Shown: positions 2,600 through 56,734 of the stretch, in pieces
How positions within the stretch are numbered: the stretch's first letter is position 1
How the letters are laid out: each line of letters begins with the position of its first letter
From: Pontibacillus chungwhensis
Lineage (GTDB): Bacteria; Bacillota; Bacilli; Bacillales; BH030062
Assembly: GCF_030166655.1 (NCBI RefSeq)
Contig: NZ_CP126446.1
Span: 1,364,001-1,428,000, forward strand
Direction: 5' to 3'
Length of the DNA: 64,000 bases
Program-made: the position numbers and the translations under genes
Notes under the pieces: model-generated
What the model was told of the DNA's origin: nothing
Databases searched by the model: none
Seen by the model: the letters and a program-made list of their open reading frames with translations, nothing else

Positions 2600-5500
2600 A
2601 TGGCAAATGCTAGACAGATTCCATCCCCGAAGACGTATGGTCCGCTCGGGAGTCTACCTCTAATTGATAAAGATAAAATGATGCAATCCTTAATGAAATT
2701 AGCCGATGAATACGGCCCGATTTTTCAATTTCAGTTTCCGGGTCGACTTAGTACGATTATTTCAAACCATGAACTCATTAAAGAAGTAAGCGATGAGTCA
2801 CGTTTTGATAAAACGGTAGGGCCTGCTTTACAAAATGTAAAAGCTTTTGGCGGGGACGGATTATTCACAAGTGAAACGTCAGAGCCAAACTGGAAGAAAG
2901 CCCACAACATCCTACTCCCAAGCTTCAGCCAGCAGGCGATGAAAGGGTACCATGACAAAATGGCCGATATCGCTGTTCAGCTTGTGCAGAAATGGTCCCG
3001 TCTGAACGACCAGGAAAGCATTCACGTAACCGACGATATGACACGTCTCACGCTTGATACGATCGGGCTATGCGGCTTTAACTATCGTTTTAATAGTTTC
3101 TACCGCGAAGAACTGCACCCGTTTGTTCAGAATATGGTTCGTGGACTAGATGAAGCGATGAGTCAGCTGCAGCGTCTTGGCCTGCAAGATAAATTAATGC
3201 TGAAGAAGAAACGTCAGTTCCAGCAAGACATACAAGGCATGTTCACTCTTGTGGACCAGCTCATTCAAGACCGTAAAGACCAGGGAGACCAGGGGGAAGA
3301 TGACCTTCTTTCTCATATGCTAAAAGGTCATGATCCTGAAACAGGTGAGAAATTAAGTGATGAAAACATTCGCTTCCAGATCATCACGTTCTTAATCGCC
3401 GGACACGAAACAACAAGTGGCCTGCTTTCGTTTGCGCTACATTATCTGATGAAGAATCCAGAGGTGTTAGAGAAAGCCTACGCGGAAGTGGACGAAGTGC
3501 TAGGCGACAGCGGCGTCCCTACTTATAAACAAACGAAACAGCTAAAATACGTGCGCATGATCTTAAATGAAGCCTTGCGCCTATGGCCAACAGCGCCTGC
3601 CTTTGGTCTTCATGCAAAAGAAGATACCGTCATCGGAGGAGATATTCCGATCGAGCAAGGCGAAACGGTTATGGTCTTGCTGCCGCAATTACACCGTGAT
3701 AAATCCGTATGGGGAGACGATGTCGAAGCGTTCAAGCCAGAGCGTTTTGAAGATATGAAATCCATCCCACAGCACGCCTTTAAACCATTCGGCAATGGAC
3801 AGCGTGCGTGTATCGGCCAGCAATTTGCGATGCACGAAGCAACGCTTGTGTTAGGCATGCTGTTGCAAAACTTCAAGTTTATTGATCACACAAACTACCA
3901 ATTAGATGTAAAAGAAACACTAACGCTAAAACCAGAAGGCCTCACGATGCAAGTGAAGCCCCGTCGCGCTCAGATGGCTTTTCAAATGACGGCTCCTAAG
4001 AAAGAGGAGGACCAAAAAGAAAGCAAAAAAGAAGCATCCGTTCCTAAACACGGCACGCCTCTACTTCTTTTATATGGTTCAAACCTCGGAACAGCTAAAG
4101 GCGTAGCCCGTGAACTTGCTGAGATTGGCGAGGCAAAAGGGTTCAGTGCGCACATTGCTTCCCTTGATGAGTATGCAGGCCTGATGCCGCTTGAGGGAGC
4201 GGTTGTCATTGTCTCCGCATCCTATAACGGAAATCCACCTGATAATGCTCACGAATTTGTGGCTTGGCTTGATGCAGCAGGTGAGAATGAGTTAACAGGC
4301 GTTCAGTATTCTGTATTCGGCTGCGGCGACCGCAACTGGGCCAATACCTATCAAAGCGTTCCGAAGTGGATTGACGAAGAAATGGCGAAAAAAGGTGCCA
4401 CTCCTTTTGCTGAACGTGGAGAAGGCGACGCGAGCGACGACTTTGAAGGCCAATATGAAACATGGGAAGAAGGACTCTGGAGTAAACTCGCTGAAACGTT
4501 CGACCTGAACCTTGAGGGAGATACTGGACAAACCGCTAATGCGCTGACGGTTGAATTTGTAGACGGTGTAACAAGTACACCCCTTGCGAAGGATCATAAA
4601 GCCTTCACAGCGCGTGTTGCTGAGAGTGCTGAACTGCAAGGGCAAACAAGTGAACGAAGCACCCGTCATTTAGATATCACACTGCCATCAGGTGTTTCCT
4701 ATAAAGAAGGAGATCACTTAGGCATTATTCCACAAAATAACCAGGACCTTGTCGACCGCGTCCTGCGCCGTTTCTCATTAGACGGCGAACGCTTTATGGT
4801 GTTAAGCGGAAGCAGCGGCAAAACGGCTCACCTTCCACTTGACCATCCGGTGAGCATTAAAGATTTAATGACCCATTATGTAGAACTTCAAGAACCTGCA
4901 ACACGAGCTCAAATTCGTGAACTCGCAGCAAACACAACTTGCCCGCCTCACAAAGTAGAGCTTGAAGATCTTTTACAAGATGAGGTTTACAAAACGGAAG
5001 TGCTAGGCAAACGCACAACCATGCTTCAGCTGCTTGAGAAATACATGGCATGTGAGCTTCCATTTGATCGCTTCGTTGCCCTATTGCCACCACTAAAAGC
5101 TCGCTATTATTCCATCTCGAGCTCACCGAGTGTGCAAGAAGGAAAACCAAGCATTACAGTCAGTATCGTTCGCGGACCATCCTGGAGCGGTGACGGAGAG
5201 TATAAAGGAGTAGCGAGTAACTATCTTGCATCCTTAGAACCTGGAGATGAGGTCGCATGTTTCATTAACACACCTCAATCGAACTTCCAGCTTCCTGAAT
5301 CCAGCGAAACGCCGATGATTCTGATTGGCCCAGGAACAGGAGTGGCTCCGTATCGCGGCTTCTTGCAAGCGCGTCAAGCACTGCGTGAAGCAGGCCACGA
5401 ACTAGGCGAAGCCCATCTTTACTTCGGCTGCCGCCATCCTGAACAGGATTACCTTTACCAGGAAGAGTTCGAATCCTTCCAGGAAAACGGACTCGTCAAG

Positions 5501-5770
5501 CTGCACACGGCTTTCTCCCGTTTAGAAGGCGCGGAGAAAACTTATGTGCAAGACTTACTGCGCGAAGATGCCGAACAAGTGATGGGTCTATTAAACAAAG
5601 GCGCCCGCTTGTACGTATGCGGCGACGGCAGCCAAATGGCCCCGGCCGTCGAAGAAGTATTAATGGAAAGCTACGAAAAAATTCAATCTGCCACACGAGA
5701 AGAAGCAGCCGAGTGGTTAGATGGTTTACAGCAAAAAGGCATTTATGCAAAAGATGTTTGGGCTGGGTAA
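2600..5770 (+). CDS. Self-sufficient cytochrome P450-reductase fusion (CYP102A type)
   Basis: A 1,056-residue NADPH-dependent fatty-acid hydroxylase of the P450 BM3 / CypB class; it oxidises fatty acids near the omega end without a separate redox partner. Domains in order: P450 haem domain (about 1-455) with the I-helix [15 protein letters not shown] (ExxR) and haem loop [13 protein letters not shown] with ligand Cys404; linker rich in K/E; FMN flavodoxin domain from about 490 ([14 protein letters not shown]); then FAD/NADPH reductase domain with RYYSISSSP and [13 protein letters not shown]. The C-terminus DVWAG is typical. Length matches the family (about 1,050). It starts at ATG 2600 and is controlled by the TetR gene upstream. 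Confidence 0.95.
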
Positions 5771-5784
5771 TGATTATGATGATG

Positions 5785-5817
5785 AAAAGCGGAACCTATG
5801 GGGTTCCGCTTTTTTTG
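5785..5817 (+). terminator. Terminator after the P450 gene
   Basis: AAAAGCGGAACC pairs with GGGTTCCGCTTTTTTT across a four-base loop, ending in a T-tract. Confidence 0.9.
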
Positions 5818-5822
5818 TCTGG

Positions 5823-6770
5823 TTGTAGAGATGGTGGGGAGCGCGGTGCGGCGGAGTGTAGAAAGCGGGTTTGCAGTGTTGAATGGAGGTGCGGTCTGTA
5901 GAAAGCCACCCTCCACTGTCTAAAGCCAGAGCGCACTGAAGAAAGAGAGAAGAGCAATGAAGAAAGATTACCGAGCAGTAAAGAAAGAGCCTCTGCTGTG
6001 TCTAAAGCAGGATCGGAATGTTGAAACGGGCGGCGGAGTGAAGAAAGATGGATTACATTGTTGAAAGCTAGGTCGGTCTGTAGAAAGGTTTGTGAGCAGT
6101 GAAGAAAGGTTGGTGTGCAGTGTAGATAAAGGGTTTGGAATGTAGATAGACGGGTTTGACTGTAGAAAGAAAGGGTTGAGTGAAGAAAGCGGGGTCGGAC
6201 TGCCGAAAGCCGCCCTCCACTGTCTAAAGCCAGAGCGCACTGTCTAAAGCGGATAGAGCAATGAAGAAAGATTACCGAGCAGTGAAGAAAGAGCCTCCGC
6301 AGTGTCTAAAGTAAGATCGGAATGTGCAAACAGGCGGCGGAGTGAAGAAAGATAGATTACATTGTTGAAAGCCAAACCGTTCTGTCGAAAAGAGCAGCGC
6401 AGTGTAGAAAGCGGATAGAGCTATGAAGAAAGGTTACCGAGCAGTGAAGAAAGGTTGGTGTGCAGTGTAGAAAAGAGGTTTGGAATGTATATAGAAGGGT
6501 TTGACTGTAGAAAGAGAGGGTTGAGTGTTAAAAGGCGGATGGCACTGAAGAAAGCCGCCCTCCACTGTCTAAAGCCAGAACGCACTGTCGAAAGCAAATA
6601 GAGCAATGAAGAAAGATTACCGAGCAGTGAAGAAAGAGCCTCCGCAGTGTCTAAAGTAGGATCGGAATGTGCAAACAGGCGGCGGAGTGAAGAAAGCTAG
6701 ATTAGATTGTTGAAAACCAAACCGTTCTGTCGAAAGAGAGTGCGCACTGAAGAAAGCCGCCCCTCCCCAC
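5823..6770. repeat. Array A: about 45 degenerate ~20-bp units with higher-order repeats
   Basis: The whole spacer between the convergent P450 and guaC genes is a tandem array of 18-22-bp units. Each has a TG-NNN-AAAG core (TGAAGAAAG, TGTCTAAAG, TGTAGAAAG, TGTTGAAAG) followed by about ten G/A-rich bases. The core recurs every ~20 bp but not in multiples of three, so it does not encode a protein repeat. Groups of 15-17 units are themselves repeated: the unit CAATGAAGAAAGATTACCGA occurs near 5955, 6259 and 6604 with the same ordered neighbours each time. Purine-rich strand is +. Leftward open frames here (6240-5968, 6606-6421, 6850-6617) are by-products. Confidence 0.9.
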
Positions 6771-6793
6771 CCACGCACATAACCTCTCCCAAA

Positions 6794-6824
6794 CAAAAAA
6801 ACGAGCCCCAAAGGGCTCGTTTTC
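6794..6824 (-). terminator. Terminator after guaC
   Basis: Read leftward, AACGAGCCC pairs with GGGCTCGTT across a four-base loop and is followed by seven T; it ends guaC transcription before array A. Confidence 0.9.
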
Positions 6825-6830
6825 ACAAGA

Positions 6831-7814
6831 TTAATAGACTTTATCTCCATTAAAGATCGAGTTCTTCACAACAACATAGTCTACGTGCTTAATGGCATCA
6901 AGGTCCGTGCCGCCTGCGTAGGAGATGGCGGATTGGAGGTCTTGTTGCATTTCGGTAAGGGTGTCCTCAAGGGAGCCTTTGTGTTCAACGAACATTTTCT
7001 TGCCCTCGACGTTTTTCTTTTCGCCTTTTTGGAACTCAGAGGCAGAGCCGAAGTATTCTTTATAAAGCTTTCCTTCGCGTTCGACTGTTTCGCCAGGGGA
7101 CTCTTCGTGGCCGGCGAATAGGGAACCGATCATAACCATTGTTGCTCCGAAGCGGACGGATTTTGCGATGTCTCCGTGGGTGCGGATGCCGCCGTCAGCA
7201 ATGATAGGTTTTGAAGCGGCTTTTGCACACCAGCGAAGGGCCGCTAGCTGCCAGCCTCCTGTGCCGAAGCCGGTTTTGATTTTGGTGATACATACTTTCC
7301 CCGGGCCGATGCCGACCTTGGTTGCGTCAGCGCCTGCGTTTTCTAACTCGCGTACGGCTTCTGGTGTTCCGACGTTTCCTGCGATGACGAATGTGGAAGG
7401 AAGGTGATTTTTGATATGTTGGATCATTTGGATTACGGCGTTGGAATGGCCGTGGGCAATGTCGATTGTGATGTAATCGGGAACAATGCCTTCAGCTGCA
7501 AGCTCCTCAATAAATCCGTATTCTTCTTCCTTCACGCCAACACTAATCGAAGAGATTAGTCCGCGTGTTTTCATATCCTGGATGAAGGCACGGCGCGTAG
7601 CTGGTTCGAAGCGGTGCATCACGTAGAAGTACCCTTTTTCTGCTAAGAAGGTTGCGATTGTTTCATCTATGATCGTCTGCATGTTGGCAGGAACGACTGG
7701 TAATTCAAATGTATGGTTGCCTAACGTTACTTTTGTATCACATTCAGAGCGGCTGTTTACGACACATTTAGCCGGGATTAGTTGAACATCTTCATAATCA
7801 AATACATTTTCCAT
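6831..7814 (-). CDS. guaC: GMP reductase
   Basis: A 327-residue enzyme that reduces GMP to IMP with NADPH in purine salvage (cytoplasmic TIM barrel of the IMPDH/GMPR family). Visible features: start [16 protein letters not shown], the glycine loop and catalytic cysteine in [18 protein letters not shown] phosphate-binding segment, and no CBS domains, which separates it from IMP dehydrogenase. Length equals B. subtilis GuaC. I placed the start at ATG 7814 with GGGAG a few bases upstream; a TTG at 7829 would overlap that ribosome site. A PurR-like pair of boxes lies upstream. Confidence 0.93.
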
Positions 7815-7828
7815 TGTATACACTCCCA

Positions 7829-7869
7829 AAAACCGAACATTAAAATTCGGTTAAACATTATCGTTCGTA
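7829..7869 (-). promoter_or_regulatory. Possible PurR operator at guaC
   Basis: CCGAACATT at 7833-7841 on + and TACGAACGAT on - (7860-7869) form an inverted pair of PurR-like boxes (consensus around CCGAACAWT) about 18 bp apart, as seen in Bacillus PurR operators. The left box also forms a small stem (AACCGAA/TTCGGTT), so a leader hairpin is an alternative reading. Confidence 0.4.
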
Positions 7870-13007: not shown

Positions 13008-13272
13008 AAGGTGGGGGATGCGAGGTCGAGAAAGTGGCTTTGCGCGGCTAAAAAGAGATACGCGAGGTCGAGAAAACGTTTTGTTACGTCTAGAAAAGAG
13101 GAGGGGATGACGAGTAAGCGGATCGCCACGGCTAGAAAGCTAGATAGGACGACGAGAAAAGAGCGCCCACGGCTAAAAAGAAAGAAACGACGTCTAGATT
13201 CTTTGTCAGAACGTCTAAATATCAGACGCTACGTCTAAATTCCTGGCCAGGACGTCTAAAACCCCCCTCCCT
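13008..13272. repeat. Array B: about 12 degenerate ~20-bp units
   Basis: The spacer between the convergent GH32 and beta-lactamase-like genes holds units of about 20-22 bp with cores such as ACGTCTAGAAAAG, ACGGCTAGAAAG, ACGACGAGAAAAG and GGTCGAGAAAG, each followed by about ten variable bases. The last four units have the core ACGTCTAAA or ACGTCTAGA. Layout (YG-NNN-AAAG-like core, purine-rich strand +) matches array A, but the core bases differ. No higher-order repeat is seen. Confidence 0.8.
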
Positions 13273-20957: not shown

Positions 20958-20976
20958 TGATTTAGAGCGATGGAGC

Positions 20977-21098
20977 GTGCCAGACACCTGGTCGCGCTTT
21001 AGAGTGTGAAAGGGTGTCAGGCACGTAGTAGTGCTTTAGAGCGATGAAGGGTGTCTGACACCTGGTAGTTTATTAAAGCAGTAAAGGGTGTTTGACAC
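20977..21098. repeat. 37-bp-phased palindromic repeat, 4 units
   Basis: Palindromes start at 20977 (GTGCCAGACAC), 21014 (GTGTCAGGCAC), 21051 (GTGTCTGACAC) and 21088 (GTGTTTGACAC), all exactly 37 bp apart. Linkers share GCTTTAGAGCGATGAAGG. With the preceding terminator, this block is duplicated after glpT. Confidence 0.85.
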
Positions 21099-21181
21099 GC
21101 GTCATTGCTTTATAGGGAGAAAGCAAATGTAGGAAAATGTCGGATTAGGATGAAATATAGGGAAATATTTTCAATATTTTG

Positions 21182-21210
21182 TTGACAGCGTTTTCAAAGG
21201 AGGGTAAACT
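21182..21210 (+). promoter_or_regulatory. glpT promoter with overlapping cre site
   Basis: TTGACA (21182-21187), 17-bp spacer, TAAACT (21205-21210). TGACAGCGTTTTCA at 21183-21196 is a good CcpA site overlapping the -35, so glucose repression is expected. Confidence 0.75.
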
Positions 21211-21233
21211 TGTGCCATACAAGTTAATACTTT

Positions 21234-21313
21234 GAACGGAGAACACGGAGACTCACACTATTTTGGGGCTTTATCGGATGATAAAGTTCTGGAGGAGTGT
21301 GGGCTTTTTTGTT
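21234..21313 (+). promoter_or_regulatory. Leader with terminator, likely GlpP-controlled
   Basis: After the promoter, the leader holds GAACGGAGAACACGGAGACT, then a long hairpin with outer stem CACACT/AGTGTG and inner stem CTTTATC/GATAAAG, then a T6 tract near 21307. Bacillus glp genes are established to use such leader terminators, opened by GlpP with glycerol-3-phosphate. Assignment to GlpP rests on the gene downstream and the layout. Confidence 0.65.
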
Positions 21314-21439
21314 TTCACCTTGGATGAAATTTATTAGAAAGGAGGATCTAAACGTTCCATGGATTTAACTTGGTGGGACGGTTAGAAGGTTCATAGAGAT
21401 TCTATGAAACCAACAAGCTAATAAATTAGGAGGGTTTTC

Positions 21440-22804
21440 ATGTTTGATTTTTTCAAACCAGCTTCTGCTAAAGAGAGATTACCAGATGAACAAGTAGATG
21501 CTGAATATAAGAAGCTCAGGCTTCAGGTTTTCTTAGGAATTTTCATAGGTTATGCGGGTTACTATTTAATTCGCAAGAACTTCTCATTGGCAATTCCTTA
21601 TTTAACAGAAGAAGGATTTTCAAAGGGAGAGCTTGGGTTGGCTCTTTCTGCGATCTCGATTGCGTACGGAATAAGTAAGTTTGTGATGGGGACCGTCTCG
21701 GATAGGAGTAACGCCAGGTATTTCTTAGCTACCGGTTTGATCTTATCCGCGATTATTAATTTGAGTATAGGTTTTATCCCATTTTTCACCTCGTCTATAG
21801 CTATTATGTTTGTCATGCTATTCTTAAATGGGTGGGTGCAAGGTATGGGCTGGCCACCGTCCGGGCGTACGCTTGTTCACTGGTTCAGTGTTAGTGAACG
21901 TGGAGGGAAAACTGCCATATGGAACGTAGCACACAATGTAGGTGGAGGCTTAATGGCTCCTCTTGCGATTGCGGGTGTGTCGATTGTAACCACCTATTTT
22001 GGGGCAAGTTTTGCTGGATATGAAGGGATCTTCATCTTACCAGCCCTCGTTGCTATTGTTGTGGCATTGGTCGCTTTTCTTCTTATGCGAGATACTCCGC
22101 AATCTGTCGGGTTGCCTCCAATTGAGGAATACCGTAATGACTATCCTTCTAAATCGAAGAAGACATTCGAAACAGAACTGACGACGAAAGAGATTTTATT
22201 TAAGTACGTTTTGAACAATAAATGGGTTTGGACGATTGCGATTGCGAACGTCTTCGTCTACTTCGTACGTTATGGTGTGCTGGACTGGGCGCCAACATAC
22301 TTAAGTGAAGAAAAAGGATTTAATATGGAAGAATCAAGTTTGGCTTATTTCCTTTATGAATGGGCGGGAATCCCAGGAACATTACTCTGTGGGTATATAT
22401 CGGACAAAGTATTTAAAGGGCGCCGCGGACCAGCAGGCGTGGTGTTTATGCTAGGTGTTCTTGTCGCAGTTGTTGTGTACTGGTTAAATCCAGCCGGAAA
22501 TCCAATGATTGATAATGCAGCGCTAATTGCAATCGGCTTCCTGATCTATGGACCGGTTATGCTAATTGGATTACAAGCACTAGACTATGTACCGAAAAAA
22601 GCTGCAGGAACAGCAGCTGGCCTGACTGGATTATTCGGTTACCTTGGTGGTGCTGTTATGGCAAATGCTTTACTTGGTTACATTGTACAATTCGCAAGCT
22701 GGGATGCAGGATTCATGCTTCTAACAGGCTCCTGTGTACTAGCCGTCATCCTCTTCGCCTTCACATGGAACGTAAAAGGCCAAGAAGTTGTAAAACATCA
22801 TTAA
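21440..22804 (+). CDS. glpT: Glycerol-3-phosphate transporter
   Basis: A 454-residue MFS antiporter of the organophosphate:Pi family, exchanging glycerol-3-phosphate for phosphate. Features: [18 protein letters not shown] in TM1, DRSNARYFL loop after TM2, [16 protein letters not shown] and the [10 protein letters not shown] stretch in TM4-TM5, typical of GlpT/UhpT; about 12 membrane segments. GlpT is favoured over UhpT by similarity and the glp-type leader. ATG follows AGGAGGG. No glpQ follows, unlike B. subtilis; the gene stands alone between two copies of a terminator-repeat block. Confidence 0.88.
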
Positions 22805-22810
22805 AAAAAT

Positions 22811-22844
22811 CAAGCAAGCACCCTTATGAGGTGCTTGCTTTTTT
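22811..22844 (+). terminator. Terminator after glpT
   Basis: CAAGCAAGCACC pairs with GGTGCTTGCTT, then T6; near-copy of the terminator at 20927. Confidence 0.92.
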
Positions 22845-22862
22845 GCTTTAGAGCGATGGAGC

Positions 22863-22947
22863 GTGCCAGACACCTGGTCGTGCTTTAGAGTGTGAAAGGG
22901 TGTCAGGCACGTAGTAGTGCTTTAGAGCGATAAAGGGTGTCTGACAC
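22863..22947. repeat. 37-bp-phased palindromic repeat, 3 units
   Basis: Palindromes start at 22863, 22900 and 22937, exactly 37 bp apart. The block from about 22811 to 22947 matches 20926-21061 with only a handful of base differences. Confidence 0.85.
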
Positions 22948-23054
22948 GCGTCTGCTCTTTACAGCGTCAAAGGATGGGGGATGTTTCCAGGTTTATAGTG
23001 TGAAGCATTTTGGGAAATTGTAATGGTGTGATACTACTTAAGGAGGTTTTTGAG

Positions 23055-23870: not shown

Positions 23871-23898
23871 CTGCTTCTTTGCTTTAGTGAAGTGAAGC

Positions 23899-23983
23899 GT
23901 GTCAGACACACACCATTGCGTTAGAGCAGTGAAGCGTGTCAGACACGCGTCAGTGCTTTAACGCAGCACCGGGTGTCTGGCAC
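23899..23983. repeat. 37-bp-phased palindromic repeat, 3 units
   Basis: Palindromes start at 23899, 23936 and 23973 (GTGTCAGACAC twice, GTGTCTGGCAC once), exactly 37 bp apart, directly after a terminator. Confidence 0.85.
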
Positions 23984-24109
23984 GCATTAGTCCTTTAGTG
24001 CGCTAATGAGAAGTCTTAAAATAAGGGTTGCTTTTTGGGGTGAGGAGGAGTTAAATAGGGTAGTATATAGAGATTATTTGGAAGTGTTGCCTGAAGGGGG
24101 AGGGTTAGG

Positions 24110-25478: not shown

Positions 25479-25534
25479 TACATTTATTCAAAAGAATAGT
25501 GGCCGTGAAGGTTATGGGTAACACTATAACTGGA

Positions 25535-25670
25535 GCCAATCCTGGAGAGATCGCGTAAAGCGGCGCCGAAGGGTTCATGATCTCAGGCAACCGGACAGGA
25601 ACGAACTTACATACAGAATACATGTATGGGTACGTTTGTCTGAGATCGGCGAGAGCTGATCTCTTTTTTT
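25535..25670 (+). ncRNA. Glycine riboswitch (single aptamer) with terminator
   Basis: The core carries the conserved glycine-aptamer blocks in order: GGAGAG (25544-25549), GCGCCGAAGG (from about 25563), ATCTCAGGCAA (about 25580-25590) and GGACAG (25593-25598). Only one full aptamer is visible; the preceding 40 bases may be the degenerate 'ghost' partner. A terminator AGATC-GGCGAGAGCT-GATCT plus T7 ends at 25670. GATCTCAG (25579-25586) in the aptamer is exactly complementary to CTGAGATC (25640-25647), the 5' arm of the terminator. So glycine binding should free the terminator arm, predicting an OFF switch. It controls the ACT and UPF0210 genes. Confidence 0.85.
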
Positions 25671-27404: not shown

Positions 27405-28258
27405 GGGGGTGGCTCGAGTGGCGGGGTAGCGGCTCGAGAGCAGGGTAGCGGCTCAAGCTGGCGATAAGAGGCTCGAGGTCCGGGGGCCGAGGCTCAAGTA
27501 GAGAGAAAGCTACTCAAGTGAGGCCCCTGCTGGCTCAAGAAAAGAGAAAACCGACTCAAGCATCAAAAAAATAAGCTCAAGAAAAGAGCGAGCTGACTCG
27601 AGTACAAGAAAAGCGACACGAGAAGCGGACGTAGCGGCTCAAGCTTTCGAAAAGAGGCTCGAGTCCGGGGTAGCGGCTCAAGTAGAGAAAAAGCGACTCA
27701 AGAGAGGCCTCAACTGGCTCAAGAAAAGAGAAAACCGACTCAAGCATCAAAAAAATAAGCTCAAGAAAAGAACGAACTGACTCGAGTACAAGAAAAGCGA
27801 CACGAGAAGCGGACGTAGCGGCTCAAGCTGGCGAAAAGAGGCTCGAGTCCGGGGTAGCGGCTCAAGTAGAGAAAAAGTGACTCAAGCCAGGCTCCCAAAG
27901 GCTCAAGAAAAGTGAAAACCGACTCAAGCATCAAAAAAATAAGCTCAAGAAAAGAACGAACTGACTCGAGTACAAGAAAAGCGACACAAGAAGCGGACGT
28001 AGCGGCTCAAGCTGGCGAAAAGAGGCTCGAGTCCGGGGTAGCGGCTCAAGTAGAGAAAAATCGACTCAAGAGAGGTCTCAACTGGCTCAAGAAAAGAGAA
28101 AATTGACTCACTCATCAAAAAAATAAGCTCAAGTAAAGAACGAACTGACTCGAGTACAAGAAAAGCGACACGAGAAGCGAACGACCCGACTCAAGCTGGC
28201 GAAAAGCGGCTCGAGTCCGAGGTAGCGGCTCAAGCTAGCGAAAACTGGCTCAAGCCCA
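27405..28258. repeat. Array C: about 42 degenerate ~20-bp units in a ~184-bp higher-order repeat
   Basis: The spacer between the convergent UPF0210 and hpaF genes holds about 42 units with the core GGCTCAAG, GGCTCGAG or GACTCAAG, each followed by about twelve mostly A/G bases. Nine successive units make a block of about 184 bp that is repeated: the segment AGAAGCGGAC recurs at about 27621, 27804 and 27989, and as AGAAGCGAAC at 28172. The spacing is not a multiple of three. Purine-rich strand is +, as in arrays A and B. The open frame at 27912-28106 is a by-product. Confidence 0.9.
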
Positions 28259-56582: not shown

Positions 56583-56734
56583 TTCTTATCCAGAGAGGTG
56601 GAGGGACTGGCCCTTTGAAGCCTCAGCAACAGGTCGAAGATGACACTGTGCTAATTCCAGCGGGTGAACCATCCTGATCGATAAGAGCTTTCGTTATTGT
56701 CAGTTAAACGCACTCGCATGAGAGTGCGTTTTTT
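56583..56734 (+). ncRNA. SAM-I riboswitch (S-box) with terminator
   Basis: P1 strands TCTTATC (56583-56589) and GATAAGA (56680-56686) close an S-box aptamer with the conserved blocks CAGAGAGGTGGAGGGACTGG, CCCTTTGAAGCCTCAGCAAC and GTGCTAATTCCAGC. A terminator AACGCACTC/GAGTGCGTT plus T6 follows (56706-56734). Known logic: high S-adenosylmethionine causes termination, so the operon is made in methionine/SAM shortage. Confidence 0.96.

Follow-up and report, generated by a model that had tools for sequence, protein, structure and literature searches.

Phased arrays of 20/21-bp units at gene ends in Pontibacillus and a second genus

Several described kinds of repeat come close to the arrays reported here. 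The nearest in functional likeness are the REP/BIME repeats of enterobacteria and pseudomonads, which lie at the 3' ends of genes and in convergent gaps and which are cited, in the part of PMC1525189 that treats them, as binding DNA gyrase, Pol I and IHF. Whereas REPs are palindromic, the units described below are direct, non-palindromic and phased at two helical turns. Borg tandem repeats, in the sections of PMC9879509 that concern them, are intergenic and fast evolving, with one example made of 20-nt units and a 21-nt unit; their units are described as perfect copies and also occur within genes, whereas ours are diverse units with a conserved core. The TAACTGA repeats of Beggiatoaceae form many intergenic arrays of one short motif with a preferred orientation; by the portion of PMC4679880 that deals with them, they consist of 7-bp units that lie mostly just before start codons, as opposed to the 20/21-bp units at gene ends found here. 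A search of open-licence PMC literature (titles and abstract openings) returned no recognised description of bacterial phased 20/21-bp arrays with higher-order blocks.

Bacterial minisatellites, or VNTRs, share with the present arrays a head-to-tail arrangement of units and, with one genome compared per species, a unit number that differs between species; the arrays depart from them in having mostly distinct spacers, a constrained core, a fixed step and higher-order blocks. Plasmid iterons are direct repeats of about two helical turns, and the step of the arrays agrees with this. Unlike iterons, however, the arrays reach 78 units and occupy many chromosomal loci, and no origin or initiator gene was seen beside the array from which this work started. 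Alpha-satellite higher-order repeats are likewise built of diverged units in recurring multi-unit blocks, but their units measure 171 bp, whereas the arrays have 20-bp units, total hundreds of base pairs and are dispersed. We know of no link between the arrays and segregation, unlike centromeric alpha-satellite.

Here we analyse a window of 64,000 nucleotides (C1:1364001–1428000 of the 4.17-Mb genome of a salt-loving Pontibacillus, hereafter the home genome; positions are those of the window unless another sequence is named). Phased arrays of this kind form a dispersed class, characterized by their position, the constraint on their step and core, their turnover and their orientation bias.

Layout and periodicity of array A

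Array A (5855–6765, + strand) fills the gap between two convergent genes. The upstream neighbour is a P450–reductase fusion gene (2600–5770, +), which gives only sub-cut-off matches to the NCBIfam models for P450 and reductase and which is presumably CYP102-like; the convergent neighbour is guaC, encoding GMP reductase (6831–7829, −; TIGR01306, 653 bits versus a cut-off of 466). The predicted intrinsic terminator of the P450 gene (5785–5816, +) comprises a 12-bp perfect inverted repeat with a 5-nt loop and a T-run (5810–5816), and that of guaC (6795–6823, −) a hairpin with an A-run on the + strand. The first clear core, at 5855, lies 38 bp past the T-run, and the last core ends at 6756, with the A-run starting 38 bp further, at 6795. 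A previous sequence-only reading had correctly placed the array between the two terminators, but at distances of 6 bp and about 25 bp that need revision. One or more degenerate leading units may occupy 5833–5854 (+), where they appear in a low-threshold chain only. No inverted repeats were reported at 5700–6900 beyond the terminator, the units of array A are not palindromic, and Rfam gave no family at the array.

A chained profile divides array A into 45 units, matching the earlier estimate of about 45, with steps of 20 bp (n = 33) or 21 bp (n = 11); autocorrelation and TRF support the call. The units are tandem as had been described, whereas the range of 18–22 bp given for them narrows to 20–21 bp. 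The profile caller is biased to 20/21-bp steps, and an unbiased motif scan and a count of core distances concur with it. The core TG-NNN-AAAG suggested from the letters exists as a motif, and AnTGWMGAAAG describes it better. TG and A.A are kept in 43 of the 45 units, whereas 36 of the 45 spacers are distinct. As tandem direct repeats with units within 10–100 bp, array A has the unit form of minisatellites and VNTRs.

Autocorrelation over 5823–6770, the check proposed earlier, peaks at lags of 345 (61% identity), 162, 304 and 20 bp (46%). All exceed every shuffled control, the ceiling being 35% at any lag (200 dinucleotide shuffles) and 32% at lags 20/21 (500 shuffles). A 300-nt block is repeated at spacings of 304 and 345, and TRF reports a 345-bp period with 90% matches. 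Six block pairs are 87–92% identical and the blocks hold 15–17 units, as had been read from the sequence. The block copies, all on the + strand, lie at 5897–6083 (87% identical to 6201–6387), at 6201–6412 (92% identical to 6546–6757) and, by repeat comparison, at 6546–6757. Unit identity reaches 0.79–0.82 at lags of 17 and 32 units, compared with a mean of 0.57, which is higher-order organization of the satellite type. The likeness to centromeric satellites drawn earlier holds for structure and goes no further than structure. Elsewhere in the window, TRF listed about three copies of a 117-bp unit (755–1127).

Sister arrays, relatives and polarity

The home genome carries at least 23 arrays of this kind, with three core types, in tandem and convergent gaps: seven with the core of array A (family F1), 15 with AGYGGCTCAAG (F2) and one with ACGNCYAGAAA (F3). 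The F1 and F2 arrays were found by pattern and DNA searches, and one F2 array, at 3.96 Mb, has four strict cores only. The window holds the F3 array (13023–13262, +; 12 units) and array B of family F2 (27408–28254, +; 42 units, with a 184-bp higher-order period), both in convergent gaps. F1 and F2 cores have a common frame, with a first A, G at position 4 and a final AAG. The longest row of all reaches 78 units. A multi-unit lag (8–17 units, at least 72% identity) is best or second-best in 12 of 20 arrays examined, which bears out the stepwise amplification of multi-unit blocks that had been proposed. All pattern pairs lie on C1 (69/69 for F1, 91/91 for F2) and none on C2; on C1 they fall at 0.37–1.56 Mb and 2.73–3.96 Mb, with none near the expected terminus. 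The terminus was set at half of C1, consistent with GC skew; we take the first ORF of C1, recognized by eye, to be DnaA. An even 400-kb sample of the home genome contained no 20/21-bp arrays except one coding repeat. TRF is weak on such arrays: it returned fragments, together with the 345-bp period of array A, but not the sister array at 13023.

Units were called with fixed profiles, iterated training having drifted from F1 to F2. The list made by the chain caller also held short irregular chains beside the arrays, and its reversed-sequence null gave 131 chains. Because reversed arrays remain periodic, reversed sequence is useless as a null, and strict core distances were used instead. Rows with fewer than 8 units or less than 70% of 20/21-bp steps were dropped. 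Three more rows were then removed: L065, which is a coding repeat; L036 at 3843, an artefact of the caller; and L090 of G003 (another Pontibacillus), which has an 18-bp step and lies in an open frame.

Scoring of gene context covered three Pontibacillus genomes plus the second genus, 64 rows in all (66 minus one coding repeat and one artefact), with gene calls from a custom ORF script and with most loci chosen for holding arrays; L096 of P. salipaludis, split by an N run, and array B of P. chungwhensis, on two contig ends, are each counted twice. A total of 42 rows lie between genes of the same direction, 17 in convergent gaps and 3 in divergent gaps, and 2 have a side unseen. These figures do not support a convergent spacer as the hallmark of the arrays. 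What the arrays have in common with REP/BIME is location at 3' ends and avoidance of divergent gaps (3/64). Among array-bearing gene ends, the only ones counted, a predicted sense terminator lies at most 140 bp upstream in 15 of 21 home arrays; when the rows of every genome are counted, 33 of 66 have one upstream. Orientation is biased: of the 23 home arrays, 20 are in sense orientation relative to the preceding gene and 20 (7/7 for F1) run with the fork. Because only 6 of the 8 home arrays in convergent gaps follow the fork, fork and gene direction are inseparable here. The second genus shows one polarity in 14 of 17 tandem cases.

A look at related genomes, which the sequence-only reading had called for, found arrays at the same loci. 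The joined stretches extend over about the first 30 kb of the window, and this part is collinear with C5 of P. salipaludis and, except for missing genes, with C12 of the compared P. chungwhensis; the P450 protein is 92% and 91% identical, respectively. The P450/guaC gap holds an array of core type TGACGAAAG in P. salipaludis (12 units) and of type TTACGAAAG in P. chungwhensis (8 units), with a core related to that of array A and the same step. Unit number in the three species, one genome each, is 45, 12 and 8, and unit order aligns no better than shuffled order in any of the three pairings. An ~205-bp repeat adjoins the array in both relatives (L013 8515–8718, L016 8444–8648); its home copy is at L055 17877–18084 and is absent from the home P450/guaC gap. 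At the array B locus all three species have an F2 array, the P. chungwhensis copy spanning two contig ends, and the arrays of P. salipaludis and P. chungwhensis still show a recognizable common unit order. An array is present at the F3 locus at home and in P. salipaludis; P. chungwhensis, which lacks neighbouring genes there, has an apparent remnant. Of the three array loci in the window, two are occupied in each of the three species and one, the F3 locus, in two of them.

Beyond the window, a same-family array occupies the orthologous place in at least one relative at L035, L042, L043, L044 (two arrays) and L046; because the relatives' loci were mostly fetched where arrays occur, these shared loci give no rate. 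The L045 locus carries F2 at home, F4 in P. salipaludis and an apparent two-unit remnant in P. chungwhensis. For a 51-unit array of P. chungwhensis (L169) the corresponding home position is without an array, and for two others (L104, L106) none was found in the P. salipaludis stretches. The relatives' cores ACGGCYTAAT, AGYGRCNGGAC and GTGACGGAAT resemble one theme, YGRC followed by A-rich letters, from which we infer that the core variants may share ancestry.

F2 pairs occur in 4 of 120 genomes, namely three Pontibacillus and, as one pair, G049. The loose F1 pattern occurs in 45 of 61 genomes, mostly once or twice, like its control; runs like array A are, among the matches listed, in G000, G005 and G006 only, and a few pairs with other letters turned up in G020, G031 and G034. 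A reversed-pattern control, run with the F2 count, hit by accident runs in G016, G061 and G097 (a second genus of the order) and in G026 (a third genus), with one or two hits in G018, G032 and G098. A direct search identified arrays with the core CCGAACTCRG in G016, G061 and G097, and 11 pairs were counted in G026. Since 125 of 126 strict distances in the fetched stretches of these three are 20/21 bp, the second genus has a different core with the same step. In G003, of which 400 kb were sampled, a nearly uniform 21-bp array (L084, core GTGACGGAAT) lies 90% within an open frame and may be a coding repeat; at L088 16071–16394 there is another 21-bp array, a weak one, whose core ends in CAGGCG and is quite unlike this. 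Samples of 200 kb from G001 and from G017 yielded no 20/21-bp arrays, and ~195 kb of G014 and 200 kb of G026 yielded one hit each, both in open frames.

Constraint on core and step, and explanations for the arrays

Block duplicates were compared in the manner of a codon test, with homologous units chosen by neighbouring units or, in an earlier cut, by their own spacers. With units chosen by neighbours, F1 showed 23 differences in 600 core sites against 109 in 695 spacer sites, and F2 32 in 880 against 119 in 1024; the earlier cut gave 29/688 versus 103/797 for F1 and 31/896 versus 81/1063 for F2. Change is thus 3–4 times rarer in cores than in spacers (2–3 times in the earlier cut). The associated p-values (3e-13 to 4e-4) are optimistic because units enter several pairs and because core positions were defined on the arrays tested. 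None of 75 duplicate pairs in F1 showed a change of unit length (1/87 in the earlier cut), and 10 of 120 in F2 did. When strict core distances were counted without favouring any step, 20/21 bp accounted for 102/102 cases for home F1, 139/155 for home F2, 138/141 for F2 of relatives, 10/10 for F3 and 18/18 for F4; the home F2 exceptions comprise 15 distances of 15–19 bp and one of 29 bp. The two-turn step noticed earlier is thus a real constraint. Between species, 6 of 15 comparisons exceeded all 30 unit-order shuffles. All six were F2, and no F1 comparison did so. In the five F2 comparisons counted (a duplicate of locus B was omitted), cores differ at 35/392 sites and spacers at 51/279.

That motif and spacing are kept while the letters between them change suggests a function at the level of protein or DNA shape rather than junk. 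The step constraint, the conserved cores with drifting spacers, the polarity and the lack of RNA structure together lead us to favour phased DNA sites, and we tentatively read array A as a set of oriented sites at gene ends that would form a protein-coated or wrapped border. Each unit would present a short oriented core acting as a DNA-level site, and a separation of 20 or 21 bp, two helical turns, would bring adjacent sites almost onto a common side of the helix. The cores would then probably be occupied next to one another by a nucleoid or DNA-binding protein that coats or wraps several hundred base pairs, and the wrapped array might serve as a border between transcription units, absorbing supercoils or halting read-through polymerase, much like the role thought for BIME/REP clusters in enterics. 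Duplication and loss of multi-unit blocks would make arrays grow and shrink, so that spacers turn over while core and step stay. An oscillation of A+T content at 10.1–10.5 bp, compatible with wrapping, is present in the second genus as well as in F2, F4 and F7, and the half-unit A+T harmonic is strongest in 35 of 65 arrays, both as raw values with no shuffled baseline; in the family of array A the 10-bp signal is weak and the rhythm is mainly one of 20 bp. The diversity of cores among arrays and lineages makes it hard to see a single protein recognizing all of them.

The main rival, which we consider unlikely but serious, is that the arrays are functionless minisatellites, generated by slippage and unequal exchange where they do least harm, behind gene ends. 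Plain block amplification, the varying unit number at the P450/guaC locus, the arrays missing or reduced at some orthologous places and the rarity of divergent gaps, which leaves most arrays without paired promoters, all fit such a passive origin. It would, however, predict even decay, yet cores change 2–4 times less than spacers, F1 unit length hardly changes and one step is common to different cores in two genera. The polarity towards the gene in front, at home and in tandem gaps of the second genus, would equally suit an element in RNA, in which read-through transcripts with many motif copies bind an RNA-binding protein or stabilize 3' ends. We regard this as improbable: the folding of arrays A and B does not surpass that of 20 shuffled sequences apiece (z = +0.85 and +0.62), many arrays sit behind terminators, and it is hard to see what a step of two DNA turns would mean for an RNA. 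A decayed coding repeat can practically be dismissed for array A. Some periodic repeats elsewhere do lie in open frames (the 21-bp L084 of G003, for example), but the mixed 20/21 steps of array A break any frame, its core often holds TGA and its ORFs of at least 60 amino acids are 61–90 amino acids long and on the other strand. This outcome, named beforehand as one that would overturn the sequence-only reading, is thus improbable in the extreme.

Two further proposals are each very improbable. A replication-direction signal of the Chi or KOPS/SRS kind, read by a fork- or repair-associated motor, would account for the alignment of most home arrays, including every F1 array, with the fork, and AGCGG occurs 55 times on the array strand versus twice on the other in 395 home F2 units. 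But in convergent gaps, in which the direction of the genes cannot settle the matter, the alignment holds for only 6 of 8, one second-genus contig has mixed orientation, and AGCGG is present in a minority of F2 units and SRS in none. Binding by a plasmid- or phage-type protein for replication or partition, as at iterons, would match direct repeats of ~20 bp at a two-turn step, but the F1/F2 pattern pairs are confined to C1, plasmid and phage records contained no DNA similar to array A, and metabolic genes flank it. The F2 three-unit pattern matched seven stretches in viral contigs.

The 0A (Spo0A) box, Bacillus Chi and SRS were each rejected as the core, the motif not being general across units. 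SRS has no occurrence on the array strand of the scanned units. The 0A-box-like TGNCGAA occurs on the array strand 30 times in 242 home F1 units, 18 times in 35 of P. salipaludis, where half of the F1 units hold it, and 6 times in 19 of P. chungwhensis. A CRISPR array was rejected on repeat structure alone, the spacers of ~9–10 bp recurring in blocks and the core being degenerate.

Taken more widely, the reading as phased DNA sites would make the arrays an undescribed element of Bacillales chromosomes, with up to 78 oriented two-turn sites at gene ends, interchangeable lineage-specific cores and a wrapped nucleoprotein border between transcription units. They would amount to a bacterial equivalent of satellite DNA, with selection acting on step and core and turnover affecting all the rest. 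We offer this extension as a possibility held with considerable doubt. If the arrays are protein sites, they point to a new chromosome-organizing or transcription-border protein in spore-formers, and would be a natural experiment in keeping a DNA site and its spacing while the surrounding repeat is rewritten, the same question that centromere satellites pose, here in laboratory-tractable cells.

Other repeats and elements in the window

A second kind of array consists of 37-bp units around the palindrome GTGTCAGACAC and occurs in the window at 20961–21110, 22844–22960 and 23880–23995 (edges partly set by eye), each time beginning right behind a terminator-like hairpin. Such arrays also occur at L057, L058 and L068, and were commoner than 20/21-bp arrays in the 400-kb home sample. 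The stretch at 21053–22881, 1.8 kb with an apparent transporter gene, does not align in P. salipaludis or P. chungwhensis and is flanked on both sides by the same hairpin with its 37-bp array; the layout looks like the gain of a gene through recombination at the hairpin/37-bp repeat. Glycine and SAM riboswitches lie at 25532–25608 and 56583–56687, respectively.
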